A stretch of 64,000 nucleotides of DNA from Polytrichum commune. Its lineage: Eukaryota; Streptophyta; Polytrichopsida; Polytrichales; Polytrichaceae. The notes under the pieces were generated by a model. It was not told where the DNA came from and did no database searches. It saw only the letters and a program-made list of their open reading frames with translations. The first letter of the stretch is position 1; the number at the start of each line of letters is the position of its first letter. A program made the translations under genes and the position numbers. Shown in pieces: positions 8,139 through 64,000 of this stretch. The stretch is taken from the NCBI GenBank assembly GCA_950295325.1, contig OX485809.1:3784001-3848000 (forward strand), given 5' to 3'.

Positions 8139-8987
8139 ACAATAAACATTCAAAAAACATATGGGCTCCTTGGGGAATGACCATGTAGTCTTCTCCACCC
8201 AAAAAGAAACCCTAAAAAGTTAATTTTTGAGAGAATCACTTTTTAGTGACCATAGGGGTTCCTCTAGCATTAACTTCATGTATCCAACCTAACATAAAAA
8301 TTACATAAACTCGTAATATTGGCCAATATCAGTTAGCACAAATGCACATCTCAAACAAATTCATTGCATTACTAAGCCCTCAATAAGGAGTCTATGGACC
8401 CATGGAGAATGTTGGGTTCTTTTTTAAATTTCAAAAAGAGAATTTACTTGAACTCCTTTGTAACTATGTTATAATATGGGGGGGGGGGGGGGGGCACAAT
8501 GTGAGTAGGTGTGCTCAAGAATGATACAGTCAGTCCCAAGCGTAACAAGTTTTGGGAAAGGATTCCACCAAGACAACAAAATCTAACAAGTCGCACCTTA
8601 TTTATCCATAGATCCCAAAATGTTTTTGTAGGGGATAAATGATAGCTATGATTTCTCTAAGATATGTGGCCCAGGTTGTGGGTTCTTGCAACTTTGACCT
8701 TTGAGTTGATAGATCGAGAATTGTCTCATTTGGTCAACAATCGTAGATGCACGAATTATTAGTTCCAGTTTATAAATCGAAGTTGAGACCCAAAGTTATA
8801 AGGATTGAAAGTGAGGATCATTGAGTGATCACACATGCCCTCCCCAATTATGTTAATTTCCAAACCTACAATGGTGTCCTTATTTTGAACACATAGTCCA
8901 ATCTCATCAAAACATATGTCTCTTTGGTGCCCATTCTTAAATATAAGGCTAGCATATACCACTCAAATATAAGGTGTCTACATAAGA
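6974..8987. other. AT-rich intergenic DNA with microsatellites
   Basis: No gene recognised. It holds a (CT)n tract at 8099-8136, a run of about 16 G at 8479-8494, and, at about 8770-8965, an inverted copy of the dispersed repeat whose other copies lie near 10020, 10800, 38940 and 58320. Confidence 0.55.
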
Positions 8988-9172
8988 CTACACTAAATAT
9001 GATATTAGTGTCACTTACTATTTAGAGTTACATGGTGCTATATATATTTACTATTCATGTAGTTTCTTACCAAGTATAGTTATTAATGTTGATAAATTAT
9101 TAGACATGATATAGTAAATAGATCTTTGCGTGATTCCAAATACGAAGTGACACTAAATACACTAATTAGTGG
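8988..9172. mobile_element. Fold-back MITE, TTTAGTGTCACTTAC family
   Basis: Left end ctacactaaatatgatatt (then agtgtcacttac) is inversely matched by gaagtgacactaaatacact near the right end. It shares the tgctatatatatttactat block with the 6751 copy. About 185 bp, non-coding. Confidence 0.6.
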
Positions 9173-9477
9173 AGATTTTGACTAAGGCACTTGACATAAT
9201 TACTTGTTAACAGGTCCCAACTTACGTTCTTATGAGTATCTCAAATGTTTTTGTAGGGGAGAAAGTAAGAGCTATGCTTTTTTCTAGAAGGGCCGTAAAT
9301 TATGAATGTCATGAATCCTGAAAAGTGAGGCCCAAGTCCTGCTGCCTGCTTGCCAGTGTTGACAGCAAGCAATCTTTTATGATGATGTGTACTTCATAAT
9401 CTTGAAGGTCTTGAATGTGTTTTTGTCTCAAATACATACTTACCGCATCAAGTGGTAATTGAGCATGGTTCAATGAA

Positions 9478-9679
9478 CGGGGAGAACTGACTGCTAGTTA
9501 CATATGAACCGGTTGAGTTTGAGAATTAACCAGGTGGAGTTCAAGAATTTAAGAAAATGCTCAATCATTTAAGAGGAATTTATAGAATGTACCTCAAATT
9601 AATAAAGACTAACTGAAAGATGTTGACATGTAACGAGTTGAACACTAGGTTATGACCAAAAACCCCCTTGGACACTGGC
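9478..9679 (+). mobile_element. CCGGTT-family MITE copy
   Basis: Reads gggagaactgactgctagtt at the start, then accggttgag, tgaaagatgttgacatgtaa, and ends at atgaccaaaaacccccttgg. Diverged, about 200 bp. Confidence 0.65.
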
Positions 9680-11288
9680 ATGATTACCACTCAAGATTCT
9701 ACTTGCTATCGATTTTATAATAATGGCAACAACAAACAATCTAGATAAGTGGTACAAGTTTTGAATGCCATGGTTCATTTACTAGGCAAATGTGTTCCTA
9801 GAACACACAACGATTATTGTGACATGACTCTGTTTACATGTGTTGAGTCCAATCTATGAATTCGACTTGACAACGCACATGTAAATGTGGTCATGTCGCT
9901 ATGACTGCCGTGTCAAATCGGAAATGGTGTTCTAGGCCCCACAATCCTAGTGGTGATTGTTGTGAGAAGGGAACAATCTCCTACTTGAATGTTGTCACTC
10001 TTTTTAATTGGACAAACTCGTATTTGAGTGGTATAACTTATGGCAAGGCTTGTAGTAAGGATTGGACAACGAAATGATACGTGTTACGATGAGATTGAAC
10101 TTGATGCTCAACAATTATAAAATTTCATTGTAGGTCAAGAATTAACACAAATCAAGAAGAAATTGTTGTCTTCACTTTGACCTTCTATAGATTTTGCCTC
10201 TCATTTTTTATCTCGAAACTTGCAACGACAATCTGTAAGTCTCGCAATTGCTGATTTGGTGAGACAATTCCCAATTCGATCCAAAGGCCGGAAATGTTTG
10301 TGAAGTTGGAATAGGTGCCTCACTGTTAATGACAACTGTTCAGGTGGAGTCATCTTTTTGCTCATTGCAACCCCTGGCAAATTTATTGTGCACACTGACG
10401 AACAAATTAGGTTGTCCTCATTAACACCCATCTCACCCCAACCACCCTCGTAGTCCTAAATCTAGTCATTGACAGTGTTCTTGTTCACACAGACTGCAAC
10501 TTGCCAATCAAATACTGAGGTGCACTATCATTATCAACAAGAAACCCCGTTCGATTCAAAATCAAAATCAAAATCAAAATCAAATATTCTTGGGTGCTCA
10601 CTGCTCTTCGACGAGTCAAACATATATATTAGATGCGTTAAGATGTAACAGCCAAAGGATTAACCTATGAAGCTATAATGGACACAGAGGAGGTGAAAGG
10701 CGAGTCCTGTTTTAAACTTGAACACTTCAAACTCTTGAACTCAAAACCTCGTAAGTACTTCCTGATCACCATGCCTCACAACAAAAATGCTTAGATGGCA
10801 AGGCCTGTTGTTCAGAATGGGCACTAAGAACACACGTGTTACAATGAGATTCGACCATGTGCTCAAATTATAGACACCGATCTAGGTCCAATAGTTAACA
10901 CAATTGACAGGGTCTATGTGATCGTTTGAAGAGAGAGAATCCTCACTTCGACTTACCCCTTATAGCTTTTGCATCTCATTCTGAAACTTGGAATGACAAT
11001 CTGTGTGATTCATCCCACTTGCTAACCAGGTGAGAGATTTCCCGTTCCGAGTGAACGGCGAAATTTTGAGCTCAATCATGTATAAAAGATTCCGGTGGTA
11101 GAGAGATTACCGTCCAATAGTACATTAGGCTACTGGTAGAAGATTTCCAACCCTATATACATACAGCTGCGTATACATAACATTTGACGAGTCTTATTTT
11201 TCTTTTTGTTGAGGTTTCGGCCTTGGTGACACCTCGTCTAGTACCTAACAATGTGCATACATAACCAACCTCAGAATCTAGGGTTTTT
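9680..11288. other. Intergenic DNA 3' of the DUF6817 gene, with dispersed repeats
   Basis: Two direct copies of a dispersed repeat lie at about 10005-10200 and 10790-10990. Both contain a block like 'ggcaaggc.tgt.gt' followed by 'cgtgttac.atgagatt'. A short (TCAAAA)n run of five units lies at about 10553-10583. The sequence just below 11289 is expected to hold the 3' untranslated region of the minus-strand gene. I could not identify a poly(A) signal with confidence. Confidence 0.5.
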
Positions 11289-14178
11289 TCATGTAACAAG
11301 GCCAAGGTTGAGCATGCCGAACGCCGTTTTTGGCCACACCTTCTCAATCGACTTGTTACGCAAAATGCGCGCAAACGAGATATACCCCTCCCACGTCATC
11401 CGCTTGTCCCAGTTGGTACCCCAGTCCAACAAAAGGGTTAAGCCCTTGGTGGCTGCCGCCTCAGCAAGGCCATACTCACCCTCAGTCAGGTAAATTTGCG
11501 CCATGGTGAGGAACGGTTCGGCCGCAAATGGGTTGAGCTCGCATGCGGTTTTCAATAGCGGTAAAGCTGTATTTGTCAGCTGCTCCCGCTCCATACAGTG
11601 TATTGCCTCCCAATATAGGTCACGCGAGCGGACTAGATCGGCCGCAGGAAATATCACGGAGCACTTCTTGAAAATGTTTGGAAGTGGGATTTCGAGGTCG
11701 TGAAATGGGGCTTTCGTGCCACTGGTGCGTGCGGTCTCAGCCACGTCTTCCTTGAGGAGGATGTTGAGTAGGACACCCATTCGCGAGATCGCAGTTAGCC
11801 ATAGGCCAGGTTTGCAGTGGCCTGGCCAGAGCACATAAGGCTCGTTCCCGGCGTATTTGAACTCACCATCATAATTCTTGAACAAGTCATCCTGCACACA
11901 CAAAGACAGATTCACAATTATGAGTGTGTTAACATATTATGCCAATGCATTGTTAAGTAGCCTATATACAGGTTCCAAGTTTGCAAATAAATGATTCTTA
12001 GGTGATCTGGATAACCTAAAAATGATTGCATTAGTGACGCACCTCAACTTCAATTTAATCTTGGTAGACTTTTCCATTGAAGACTTCAGGTTCTCAGGTT
12101 CAGATTTCACAACTGAGAGGCTGAGACCCACAATTGTGTTCACAGGTTCAAGTGAAAATTAGTTCATCGATCTTGTGATACAATGAGATCCCAGCCAAAG
12201 TGTGGAGATAATCCTGATTCACGTCCCCTACACAGCCTACTGCAGGTCCTGCTTAATAAATTTGTAGGAATTTGCAGACAAAACTCCAATTTGGAATTCC
12301 AGTGGCAAAATTAATTCACAAAATCGTGGCAGCAACAGACATGATTTTGGAATAAACTTGACTTTCAAGAAGAAGGAAAAAAACTTCCCCAAACCAGGGC
12401 GAAATGCAGAAACCAGGGAAGCAACAGTTTGAAGTGCAATACGGTGTTGCTAGAGAAGAAAATTTCTTCTGCAAACACCCAGACAGTAACCGGACTTCAG
12501 TATGAAAGGCAATTCAGTGTTTCAGGGAATTCTTCACCAAGCAATGGAAAAATGCAAAGGCGAAGAGAGCAAGAAACCACTGCTGGAACTCGTATCTTGA
12601 TTGGTGACTGCCACTCATTGCAACCTCATGATATGAAATGCAATCAGCCTTCCAAGAGGGTGAACAAAAACCTTCCTATAAGAATGGCACAATGCAGAAA
12701 CCAAGGAAGGAAGCCAACAACCACTACGAAGCCTGATACTAGTTGATTTCTTATGGATGTAGCAACAGACACGATTCTGGAATAAACTTCACTTTCACTG
12801 ATATGAAGTGCAATCAGTCTTCCAGGAGGATTATCCTCAACCTTAACCATCCCCTAACAACGGCACCATGCAAAAACCAAGGAATCAAGCAAGCAACCAC
12901 TGCAAAGACTGATTCCCAGTTATTATTTCTCGACAGATGGCATGAGTGGCTCTAAACTAACAGGTTCCGGCCATTAATTGCAGACCAGACTGCATGCACT
13001 ACAAAATATGTACTCCACTACCAGATAGGTGCACAGACATCTTGAAGACAAAACGCATGGTCTTTGGACTGCCCGGGAAACCACTGTCATGCACAAAATT
13101 GAAATCGGAGTTGTCCTTTAGCAAGAACATGATACTATCCATAGTGCCCATGCCGTTTCACTTCTGTTGAAACGCATGGAACCAACCACAAAGTTCCTAC
13201 AGGATTCCCAATTGAAGGGTTATGAAAGAAGGAGCAAAAAATAATAATACTTGCGATGCCTAGAGTTTAAGGGCAGCGACTGTCATGCACAAACTTGAAA
13301 CCGGAGCGGTCCGTTAGCGACACGAGTCCATAGTTTCCATGCCACTTCTAATGAAGCCCTTGGAACCAGCCACAAAGTTCCTACATACAATGTGGTGGTA
13401 CAAGGTGTAAACGACGTCACATTGGTGGTAGGAACTTTGCGTCATACCACAAGGAGGTGAAATAAAACCCTACGACACCAGGGTTTCAGCACCATCAAGG
13501 AGATGAGATGAGTCTTTGTCTCGTCTCGTGACGCACCTGATATCCAAACCACTGGTCGATGAAATCCGCCATGGTGAGCAGCAGAAAGACTGCGACCAAA
13601 CGGCGATGGAGGACGATGTCCTCGCCCGTGCGGATGTGCTGCACCACCATCCCTCCCTCCGGGATGAACAATTTCATCTTGTCGTGAGCGCCTTTTGCAC
13701 CCGCCTCGGTCACCACCGACGATTTCTTTGGATTTTCATATTGCGCGAGCCCGGCGGCAAGCTCGTCGTCGGTGACCTTGAGCATGAGGTTGTCGAAGAT
13801 GACCTGCTGGCGCGGCACGACGCAAAACAAGTGCACGAGCGCCTCGGCCTCATCGCCGATGAGGCCGCGGACGACGTTGCGGTCGACGTCGGGTGCAAAG
13901 ATGGCGAGGTTGACGTATGAGTTGGAGTAGGACGAGTGGAAGAGGCCGAAGAGCGCAATTGCGTCGGAGCAGCCCCACACCTTCAAAATGCGGTACGTGT
14001 GTAGGAGGTGCTCGTAGAACGTCCCGTGTTTGTGATAACACTCGCCCGCGCCGCGTTGTTGCAGGATTTTAAGCAAGCCGGGGAGCCGCGGGTCGATCGA
14101 CTCGAAATCCTCGCGCAGGAACGGCTTGCATACCGCCAGCAACGCGGCGATGTGTTTGTCGTCGGCGGAGTCGGCCAT
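11289..14178 (-). CDS. DUF6817/HD-like domain protein with C-terminal TPR-like region (2 exons)
   Basis: Exon 1 is 14178-13537 (214 codons) and exon 2 is 11891-11289 (200 codons plus TGA). The donor is CAG|GTGCGT and the acceptor TGTGTGCAG|GAT, both phase 0, giving 414 residues. Start ATG has a strong context (CAGCCATGGCC). Residues 48-90 (YHKHGTFYEHL, GLFHSSYSNS) match the pattern of the DUF6817 family of plants and bacteria, with His/Asp residues arranged as in HD-like hydrolases (H51, H57, H81, MADFIDQW at 203-210). Whether it is a metal-dependent enzyme is inference. The C-terminal half has TPR-like helices (ALPLLKTACELNPFAAEPFL, then QIYLTEGEYGLAEAAATKGL), which suggest a partner-binding surface. 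No transit or signal peptide is evident, so it is probably soluble. Exon 1 is much more GC-rich than its surroundings. The reading frame is undamaged, so the gene is probably functional. Confidence 0.85.
11892..13536 (-). repeat. 1.6-kb intron with diverged internal repeats
   Basis: The intron of the DUF6817-like gene contains about three related units near 12330-12470, 12600-12750 and 12755-12920, sharing 'gcaacagacacgattctgga' and 'atgaagtgcaatcag' type blocks. It also has a two-copy repeat at about 13081-13201 and 13277-13383 (ctgtcatgcacaaa... to cacaaagttcctac). It is non-coding; short plus-strand frames inside it reflect repeat structure. Confidence 0.6.
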
Positions 14179-60812: not shown

Positions 60813-62259
60813 CACACACATAAGAATTGTGTGTTTCATATCCTATGATAAGTGGGCTAGCCGGAAAAAATAACAATTTAAGACCCTTCTACATTAGGGT
60901 GCAAGCACAATCAAGTACATGACTCCATTGCCTTGCACAAGTTTAAGTAAAAGTGATTCAAAAATATATACTAACATTGAGTTTTGTGAAAGAGAAATTC
61001 ATAAACATTTGAAAATCACATTGATCTACAAAGCCAAGCAATTTATGTTGACAATTTATTTTCAAGAAAAGTCTATATATTTTAGAAGATGGTCCAAGTA
61101 GTGTGCAAGTAGATATATTGAACTTGCAATTGTCTAATTTTTTTTTAAAGCACGATCAAATTACATTAAATTGATTTTTTTTACATTTTTTAATGTAATG
61201 ATGCTCTCAAGTTTATAATGTATTCAAGGAATATGAAAAAAATCCAACATCAAAATGTTCAAGGTCATGAAATCTACGTCCAAAACCAATCTTAGTCATT
61301 ACCTTTTGAACAATATTTTCAATGACAAGGTTTGAAGATCTCAGTTGGATATTCTAAATCTAAGTACCTAACACAACAATTTATTTTGTGAGAAATATCC
61401 AGTTTAAACAACACGTTTCTACTACTTTTAGGTATTTGACCAAAAAAATTATGGTTTCAGTATACCAAAGCATTTTTTTTGTATACTTGACCCTGCTTGC
61501 TCCCATTATATAATTAAAATTGGTCACAAATCATTTTGATATATTATAATATGACATGAAATGTAATGTGTTTGAAAATTTGCAAAGCCACGAGGCTTGT
61601 GGGACTAGTACATCAAGATGGTGTCAAATATATGAATTCCCTAGAGTAATGGCGTGCAGTGGCCTTTGTGAGATGGAGGCTAATATCGACTTGGTGGTCC
61701 AATTGGGGGAGTGCTATCTTATGAGCGGTGAGCAATGAGCGGTGAGCGATGAGCGGTAACTTATGAGCAGTGAGGAAGATGAAATTTTTGGTAATAGGGC
61801 CACCAATATCCTATAACCGTGGAATTGTGGCCTTAAAAATGATGATTTTAGGGTTTAGTAATAAGAGGGTTGAGAAGGATAAACAACATGAAGTCCAAAT
61901 ATTTATTCATCACTAGTAGCACTAGACATGAAACTATCTTTTGCCTCGTCATCTATATATATTCGAGCACCTTTGCATTGCGAATTGATTTTGGAACTAT
62001 AGCAAGATTCTTCATTTGGATCCGAATCTTCGATATTCAACATTGCAATTGCAACATTCTCGGCATATGATGGGAGACGCGGGCTACGGCTTGGACTTCG
62101 TAGGAATTATCTATGTGCCCAAAACGGGAGACATGTCCTCTTTCCAATCGTATTCCTGAAATCAAATCGATGAAACATGTAAGTAATGTGAAGAAATAAA
62201 AATGAACCAATGAATTGAATGAAACGAATGAATTGAATAAAAATTTATTGTATCAAAAC
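60813..62259. other. AT-rich intergenic DNA
   Basis: No gene recognised. A short tandem of 'gatgagcggt' and 'gagcggtgagca' variants lies at about 61720-61770. The 3' end of the methyltransferase-like pseudogene lies just above 62260. Confidence 0.5.
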
Positions 62260-64000
62260 TTACTCACACTCAAATTCAAGCATATCCTCATCCGAGAGGT
62301 CATCATCTTCTTTTGTGAGATCTTGTATATTCTCCTTAGATGACCCCTCTTTCAAAACCTTTTCCAAAAGCGGTTTCAATATGTGCTCAAACATGTCATT
62401 ATCACCCTCAAATGCAAGAAGATGTCTGCCACATGCGCGTGTTGCTAGGATAGAAGCTCCAGTGGAACATGTCAAATCAACAACGCGTCCATTCGATGGG
62501 TGTAAACAATTCAATAAGATCTTGAAAAAAACGCGGCGATTTTTAATATGGCCCCCTCCAAGGTGTTCCCGATTTTTGAAGAAGCATGTTTTTTTCATCC
62601 ACAAAATTGAAAAGCAAGTTTTTGCTTTTCAATTCAGTGCCAAAAAAAGTGGAGTTTGGTTGTCTCGTGGATTTTGTGGTAGTAAAATCCCTTACCAAGA
62701 CATGAGCCATAAATGCCGGAGTCTACAAAAAAATATAAATTGTGTTAAAACTATATACAATGCAAATAACACCAAAATAATTAAATATAAACAATTGTGA
62801 TGTGTTATACTTACGGTGTAGGTTGGAGACTCTGGATCCTTGAACACCATGTACGAATTGAGGCAAATAAAAGTCCTAAGAACTTTCATGTTGCCGTTGT
62901 GTAAGGTTGAATTCAAAACCTTCTTGGTTTGCATATCGATAGCAGAAAATACTATGAGGACGCCATCATCAGACAAGATGAACTTGCATAAGGACATTGT
63001 TGCAACCATCCAGTTCTTGTCATATTTATTCCAAAGAGGAATTTCAGCAGGTCTATTGGAGAGGTTGAAGTCAAGACCGTCCGGAAATTGCAGAAAAACC
63101 AAGTCAACGGCAAATGGAGTCGGACTTCCCATGACATGAAATTCGCGATTGTCTTTGAACTGAAATACCACAACATATCACAATATAAGACACAAAATAA
63201 AATCCAAATGAAAGTAAGAACATTACAGAAAATACAAAATGAAGATTACTTACATTTTCAAGAAATGCCCGCCATTAGATCCTCTCAGGAGGGCCTACTT
63301 CAACCCCTTCATACTTGTTCTTGACAGCAGTAGATCGAGCAAAAGAGAGCGTGAGAAAATTCTTCAGTATGAATAACTCTTTTTTCAAAACATTCGTTGG
63401 CGCACGATGAATAACGTCATAAGTGCTCGAGTAATGAAATTCCAATATATCGCACCCGGATTTTGAACTTTCGCCTCCAAGTGTATTCTTATCCAAATCA
63501 TTGGAAAGAACAAGCAATTCTTCATGTTGTGAAATTTCCGATTGACCTTGTATTTTGGTTTCAGGAACATATTTTCTCTTACGACGTTTTGTCTCTTTTG
63601 ATTCTGGCTCTCTAAGTTTAAGCTGCACAATTTGTGCTTGCAAAATTGCAGTATCACGAGGATCTACGTTTTTGGCATCATTTATCTGACGGATTGTCTT
63701 CTCACTTGACGGACATGCATCCTTAGGACAATCAAGATACCAACCACAATCCTCATAGTGTGGGAGCGACCAATCCAAACAAATTTCAGTAGTGAACATG
63801 CATGAGTCTTCAGCACCAGTGTCACGCCAATTTGGAAAAAAACGAGGTTCCCCTATAACGCATTTGTGCGGAATCAAAATATATCGGAAATACATACACA
63901 CAAAAATATTATGAGCCAAATATTGAATGAAAAGTAAAATGTAATGGAAAAATATCAAGAAATAGTAAAGAGTAAGTTGTACCTGTATAGAACACGCTTC
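62260..64000 (-). pseudogene. Beta-class amino-methyltransferase-like gene, decayed, running off the right edge
   Basis: Exons read on the minus strand: 64000(+)-63983, 63852-63254, 63159-62815, 62722-62260, with GT-AG introns in compatible phases. Exon 2 has a Cys-rich stretch (EDCGWYLDCPKDACPSS) and a basic, Glu-rich middle. Exon 3 has AVDLVFLQFPDGLDF at the place of catalytic motif IV, then DDGVLIVFSAI. Exon 4 has GTPWRGPY, then VVDLTCSTGASILATRACGR, the AdoMet-binding motif I, and FEGDND. The motif IV-before-motif I order is that of beta-class N4C/N6A amino-methyltransferases (N6_N4_Mtase). The C-terminus is acidic. Damage: in-frame TAA at 63275-63277 in exon 2, and a frameshift near 62545 (stop TAA 62543-62545) just before motif I. 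The expected D/S/N-P-P-Y/W is QFPDG here, so it may never have been an active enzyme. Introns are kept, so it is not a retrocopy. Confidence 0.65.

Follow-up and report, generated by a model that had tools for sequence, protein, structure and literature searches.

A methyltransferase-like gene that may help a high-copy Mutator-type transposon of Polytrichum commune to recognise or protect its own DNA

The methyltransferase-like gene at the right-hand end of the window (the whole stretch of DNA analysed, 64,000 nucleotides of Polytrichum commune contig OX485809.1) is the second gene of a high-copy Mutator-type transposon and not a host gene. It lies in a DNA transposon of approximately 11.9 kb, C7:3845707-3857630 (copy A, locus L001), that was outlined by comparing 10-20 kb around several copies and consists of two divergently transcribed genes, gene A in the left half and gene B, to which the window gene belongs. 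The methyltransferase (MTase)-like protein predicted from gene B may help the transposon to recognise or protect its own DNA. The window includes the following parts of copy A:

61707-64000, minus strand: right-hand part of Mutator-type transposon copy A, from copy comparison, inverted ends and target duplication; extends outside the window.
61697-61706, no strand: right target site duplication, CCAATTGGAC on the minus strand; the same 10 bp lie outside the left element end.
61707-61775, minus strand: right terminal inverted repeat (TIR) of short GAGC-type repeats, an imperfect match to the left end; outer border exact, inner border approximate.
63983-64000, minus strand: 3' end of gene B exon 3, placed via the L005 splice model; extends outside the window.
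63254-63893, minus strand: gene B exon 4, W-Y-containing conserved region and linker; acceptor lost, TAA inside.
62815-63159, minus strand: gene B exon 5, with QFPDG at the motif IV position and a motif V-like strand, both belonging to the beta-class MTase domain.
62260-62722, minus strand: gene B exon 6, motif X-like (PWRGPY..) and motif I-like VVDLTCSTGASILA, with the terminal stop codon.

Target duplications of 9-11 bp and inverted ends are typical of Mutator-like elements, and both were found here. The inverted ends, GAGGGAAGCTATCTTATGAGC and GGGAGTGCTATCTTATGAGC, are imperfect and made of short GAGC-type repeats. Copies A, B and F, the three that were read at both ends, are flanked by target duplications CCAATTGGAC, CCATTGGAGAT and GGAAATTAAG, respectively; a run of C at the element end makes each length uncertain by roughly one base. 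Gene B was found, damaged or intact, in elements A, B, C, F and G, and the divergent arrangement is constant.

In the assembly (408 Mb in 64 contigs), exon 5 is present at at least 139 places including the window, on contigs C1 to C7. Among the best 150 of 741 candidates, 140 matches share 56-100% amino acid identity with the query and 10 share 37-38%; the count is 139 rather than 140 because two of the matches are pieces of one locus. Exon 6 has at least 150 matches and exon 4 at least 152, with the best 150 of 839 and of 744 candidates scored, respectively. Bacterial contamination as the source of the window locus is ruled out by the introns, the spread over seven large contigs and the target duplications. 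Two pairs of elements with equal match scores lie in opposite orientation approximately 40-46 kb apart (C7:12033129 and C7:12079052; C2:33510078 and C2:33550716), and are either recent inverted duplications or assembly artefacts. Near 45.95 Mb on C4, the MTase domain of L024 (minus strand) is close to an N-terminal gene-B domain on the plus strand (L038, 5364-5930), and the two seem to belong to separate elements that are adjacent or nested.

The gene at 62260-64000, on the minus strand, was confirmed as spliced and runs on past the right window edge. The strings VDLVFLQFPDG, GVLIVFSAI and VVDLTCSTGASILA occur in permuted order, as the earlier note had described, and the exon phases match as reported there; in gene B of locus L005 all five introns are GT-AG. 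With 138 other genomic matches to exon 5 and the profile matches to DpnA and CcrM given below, the gene is far beyond chance. The window copy is dead. The acceptor of exon 4 is AT and not AG at 63894-63895, a lesion missed in the earlier note, and Gln codons of L005 are replaced by TAA at 63275-63277 in exon 4 (L005 numbering), which is the in-frame stop already recognised, and at 62543-62545 in exon 6, directly after GTPWRGPY. Exon 6 also has a net gain of one base, aligned at approximately 62500 (463 nt versus 462 in L005). A frameshift had previously been placed near 62545, and a lesion is indeed present there, but it is the second TAA, the frameshift being separate. Likewise, the copy is disabled as was claimed, but by an acceptor loss, two stops and one frameshift rather than by two lesions. 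A length of 463 nt for exon 6 recurs in every other locus measured apart from L005, namely L056, L061 and L070.

Gene B of L005 is composed of six exons and predicts an uninterrupted protein of 993 aa, counted from a chosen ATG with an upstream exon possible. In the predicted protein, a middle region lies between a conserved N-terminal domain and a beta-class DNA amino-MTase domain at the C-terminus. Intactness was assessed in 24 copies of the window family, S1 (six loci chosen earlier, 17 taken as every fifth exon-4 match in rows 2-92 with rows already chosen passed over, and row 4). Exons 4-6 are free of stops, gaps and splits in seven of the 24, including L004, where a stretch of exon 6 is read in another frame, and L006 is an eighth copy that is clean within the extent of its locus. 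The region formerly described as Cys-rich and possibly zinc-binding has no invariant cysteine in an alignment of 7 subfamilies, where R, Y, P, H, W, Y and P are the residues conserved throughout, and a zinc-binding domain is not supported. The N-terminal string DGNHR..AW bears what we take to be a resemblance to ParB, but a ParB-like domain was rejected, as hhalign gave 0.24-0.44% against 9 ParB domains and 0.49-0.78% for reversed controls. Searches with the N-terminal domain did not bring up ParB in Pfam, where the top match to any family had E 0.13, or in the PDB, where the top match was ribosomal protein eL24 (E 0.008). Pfam matches of S1 exons to HP1_ORF34 (E 0.0037) and NTR2 (E 0.0015) are below the curated cut-offs and were not believed.

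The C-terminal domain is placed firmly, by sequence comparison, as a relative of the beta-class DNA amino-MTases because matches to Pfam PF01555, profile matches in the PDB and hhalign agree. PF01555 matches L010 and L011 at 35.3 and 32.4 bits, both over the curated cut-off of 26.7, and the S1 representative at 22.7 bits, under it. All nine subfamily representatives in alignment A2 match at E≤1, and Pfam scans of S1 exons or fragments taken singly did not detect PF01555. The A2 profile matches DpnA (5hfj) at 3.8e-10 and CcrM (6pbd) at 7.7e-9 in the PDB. The order of motifs is permuted, with IV before I, and the CcrM match spans profile positions 16-233 while DpnA aligns both parts in order. 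In hhalign, comparison with nine amino-MTases of prokaryotic type (from six phage records, two IMG/VR contigs and one probable contaminant contig) gave a probability of 98.2%, falling to 0.76% with the alignment reversed. The three best PF01555 matches in the genome are on small contigs, two on C10 and one on C12; the loci L012 and L013, read on these contigs, have bacterial- or phage-like gene content, including a ParB-MTase protein with DPPYG, and the contigs are probable contaminants.

The position of the catalytic D-P-P-Y reads [DEQ]-x-P-[DE] in all nine rows of A2 (QFPDG, EYPDG, DIPDG, DLPEG, DIPEN, DVPED, DYPDG, DIPEG and EYPDG). Within S1, 19 of the 24 copies have QFPDG, 1 has QYPDG, 2 have QFPNG and 2 have QFSDG, and the catalytic form [DNS]-P-P-[YFW] is found neither in these copies nor in the A2 rows. 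Three claims of the earlier note are thus upheld: that a spliced gene encodes a beta-class amino-MTase domain of bacterial type, that its catalytic motif is degenerate and that the family is expanded. SPPY, which the note had proposed to look for in paralogues, is present in 0 of the 24 S1 copies. The altered motif IV is not fixed, because L011 has DIPYG, L020 has DISEN and two S1 copies have QFSDG, L011 and L020 being exceptions outside A2. Of the gene-B sequences read, only L011 (1226-2956) has an aromatic residue in motif IV, and its DIPYG may be the ancestral state or have arisen by back mutation. The motif I of the predicted S-adenosylmethionine (SAM) site appears largely kept. It is CSTGASILA in 23 of the S1 copies and CSTGAFILA in one, and in A2 a D, one G and then E-x-D are invariant while other positions vary. 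The remodelled active site suggests that the protein binds DNA or senses bases and does not carry out ordinary amino-methylation, or that its chemistry is altered.

Pooled pN/pS values, from pairwise counts in which the pairs are non-independent, are 0.26 for exon 4 and 0.45 for exon 5 in the eight lesion-free copies (28 pairs each), and 0.61 for exon 6 in seven of the eight (21 pairs). With all usable copies included they are 0.35 (276 pairs), 0.40 (253) and 0.75 (78), respectively. Exons 4 and 5 are, on these values, under constraint. Exon 6, which carries motif I, looks the least constrained; constraint there appears weak, in part because L004 with its shifted frame is among the rows, and this weakness counts against a strict need for SAM binding.

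Gene A predicts a protein of more than 1100 aa, with single open frames of 1234 and 1241 aa in divergent relatives. Pfam gave a SWIM finger at E 0.068 and 13.2 bits (cut-off 19.6) and one other weak match, with no match to a MULE transposase, and in the PDB there was no match below E 0.4. A D...D pattern with MADSAQANWNAV and C-x-x-H, identified by eye, is invariant in four alignment rows, three of which are 55-89% identical to the first. Because of the element ends, gene A is taken to encode a probable Mutator-like transposase, one that Pfam misses. A second query, for which the best 150 of 1093 candidates were scored, found further members. They include more large clades, represented by L102 (C3:48384801), L100 (C2:13655201) and L101 (C3:47773301), with rows 55-56% identical to the S1 type and some single frames exceeding 1230 aa. 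Elsewhere in the window, a degenerate transposase match at 12984-13385 on the minus strand (62% over 58 aa, plus two small pieces) is identified by this similarity as a relic of a related element.

Where the transposase halves of elements are closely similar, the gene B halves and the arrays can be quite different, which shows that the MTase half was exchanged as a cassette. Elements B and F (blastn, plus strand, E 1e-5, matches of at least 80 bp) are 90-93% identical in DNA sequence over the transposase half, with weaker intergenic stretches at 72% and 82%, and their gene B halves are unmatched except for approximately 188 bp at the right end. Transposase segments of B and F are 93% identical, and the MTase domains of the representatives of S1 and of the L026 family, to which F belongs, are only 31% identical. 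Gene B of F looks frameshifted around motif IV. Element G, of family S3, exhibits the same pattern, with 83-90% identity in parts of the left half and approximately 140 bp shared at the right end; the left end of G could not be located. In G (L041, C5:16863801-16873800), a protein-kinase-like region, oriented 8909-10018, separates the transposase from gene B; the first half of this region matches PF07714 at 24.7 bits (cut-off 23.1) and the second half PF00069 at 19.0 (cut-off 31.7). It has HCD at the HRD position and DxGDWG at the DFG position.

Although A and B have the S1 gene B in common, A is closer to F than to B in transposase dS (0.086 versus 0.164). Among 32 transposase segments placed in a tree, those of A and L086 (S1) group with six Y-type (L026-family) elements with support of 98/94, and monophyly of S1 is rejected (p-AU 0.017). 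A minimum of 4 label changes suffices for the five gene-B groups, the gene-B type of 27 loci (L073-L099) having been assigned from the nearest gene-B match. These data show replacement of gene B at splits of the transposase lineage, and replacement is claimed only there because the tree needs so few changes; a claim of frequent shuffling was dropped for the same reason. A window-by-window identity plot gave no sharp breakpoint in the left half.

The intergenic regions contain arrays of palindromes. Element B has a 64-bp unit repeated 7.7 times containing CCCTGTGCGTTAACGCACAGGG and a 32-bp unit, also repeated 7.7 times, with GTTTGGGTCG..CGACCCAAAC; F has a 105-bp unit repeated 11 times containing GGCCGTTAACGGCC, and G a 104-bp unit repeated 2.6 times with TTGTGCGTTGGCGCACAA. 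Among 99 loci, the majority of which end short of the intergenic array region, TGTGCGTTAACGCACA is found in 6, all S1 elements, TTGGGTCG-NN-CGACCCAA in 4, which are S1 elements other than the window locus L001, and GGCCGTTAACGGCC in element F alone. The S1 palindrome CTGTGCGTTAACGCACAG has 502 sites genome-wide and its reversed control has 0. Of 50 sites listed, 45 are within approximately 5.4 kb of an S1 gene-B match and the remaining 5 (C1:461705-462636) are approximately 17 kb from one. On these distributions the palindromic arrays are family-specific.

VANC, encoded by the VANDAL elements of Arabidopsis, is an anti-silencing protein; it recognises and binds short motifs located within tandem repeats, and it is far less conserved than the transposase (PMC5735166; also a review, PMC13317346). 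The moss element is also Mutator-like, its accessory gene is far less conserved than its transposase, and its non-coding parts contain family-specific tandem repeats. The explanation we favour, and to which we would give an even chance, is that the gene-B protein is an element-specific DNA-recognition accessory factor that works like VANC, binding its own arrays and keeping the element expressible; its role would probably be anti-silencing. The protein would bind the palindromic arrays of its own family, binding would act on silencing and so keep the element expressible and mobile, and in the remodelled active site catalysis would have been lost or changed. The small number of lesion-free copies (7/24) and the exon 6 pN/pS of 0.61-0.75 count against the accessory factor, as do the lack of the VANC domain (DUF1985/DUF287) in Pfam scans of gene-B exons, the exceptions to the altered motif IV and the failure of Pfam to recognise the transposase. 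There are also differences from the known system. VANC has DUF1985/DUF287 regions (PMC5735166) where the moss element has an MTase-like protein, and VANDALs are described, in a survey of Mutator evolution (PMC6446971), as non-TIR elements whereas the moss element has TIRs.

We also raise, tentatively and as a somewhat unlikely extension, that a bacterial amino-MTase was made the exchangeable DNA-recognition cassette of a large Mutator superfamily. Were the cassette swapped between transposase lineages together with its matching arrays, each family would recognise and un-silence its own copies only. If true, the VANC strategy would have been invented a second time, independently, on an MTase fold.

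Gene B could instead be a co-factor of transposition, either DNA-bridging or MURB-like, and play no part in anti-silencing. Its presence in five elements in a fixed divergent arrangement with the transposase would agree with this, and the arrays could serve as sites for the transposase complex. However, transposases of S1, Y and S3 elements are among 103 scored matches at 86-100% identity, and the MTase domains of the same three families are only 29-32% identical to one another, an odd fit for a partner of the transposase, and we regard this explanation as unlikely.

That gene B is an active DNA amino-MTase, marking its own element with 4mC or 6mA and thereby blocking 5mC silencing or discriminating self from host, seems to us more doubtful still. 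The domain is genuinely of the beta class with a largely retained SAM motif, exons 4 and 5 are selected against amino acid change, and DIPYG of L011 is near D-P-P-Y. However, the aromatic residue of motif IV is replaced by D or E in 9/9 A2 rows, and in the S1 copies this position is D in 22 and N in 2, with Q at the first position in 24/24. In the rotifer N4CMT, replacement of the Ser and Tyr of SPPY by Ala abolishes activity (PMC8885841), and ordinary catalysis by gene B is doubtful for that reason.

A decaying passenger, that is a captured MTase useless to the element, is an improbable reading. It would account for the stops or frameshifts in many copies, for the recurrence of the 463-nt exon 6 in three other loci and for the weak constraint on that exon, but not for pN/pS values well below 1 in exons 4 and 5 or for the retention of the domain, with a similarly altered motif IV, in nine divergent subfamilies. 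Membership in a host DN4MT1-like or N4CMT-like lineage, here as a pseudogene, was suggested in the earlier note from the bacterial-type MTase domain within a spliced gene, but a host gene of this kind at the window locus is refuted by a copy number that is far from low (at least 139 places, seven contigs), by transposon ends and target duplications at the window copy and two others, and by the absence of SPPY from all 24 S1 copies, leaving the idea scarcely credible.

The gene-B domain can be compared with other MTases as well. It resembles DpnA and CcrM (PF01555) in profile-level homology, permuted motif order and a largely kept SAM-site motif, and differs in having [DEQ]-x-P-[DE] for D-P-P-Y, a long N-terminal extension and a six-exon gene within a transposon. 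DIRS1-type retroelements encode an MTase domain and a tyrosine recombinase, and, compared by description only, are likewise eukaryotic mobile elements with an MTase domain, but they are retroelements. The bdelloid N4CMT and the Marchantia 4mC methyltransferase are also eukaryotic genes with a bacterial-type amino-MTase domain. These are described as host enzymes, and the SPPY site of N4CMT is functional (PMC8885841), whereas gene B is a multicopy transposon gene without SPPY, a distinction drawn from their descriptions. The titles and abstract beginnings of the open-access literature, a scope largely outside subscription papers, included no MTase gene in a Mutator element, and the terms 'methyltransferase' and 'ParB' are both absent, by term search, from the survey cited above (PMC6446971). 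A search with the single query L010 found no relatives of gene B in genome contigs, viral contigs or phage records, which is weak evidence of absence because the contig searches (genome and viral) use short exact peptide patterns.

Mutator elements with accessory genes are known; what stands out here is an accessory gene of an unexpected fold, that of an MTase. Amino-MTase domains in eukaryotes are easily taken as evidence for 4mC or 6mA epigenetics. Well over 100 such domains in this genome are transposon-borne and without the classical catalytic residues, so annotating genomes automatically by PF01555 could be misleading. The genome offers a natural set of protein-palindrome pairs for the study of target recognition. 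If the gene-B protein is VANC-like, anti-silencing cassettes would have arisen more than once in Mutator elements, here from an unexpected fold.
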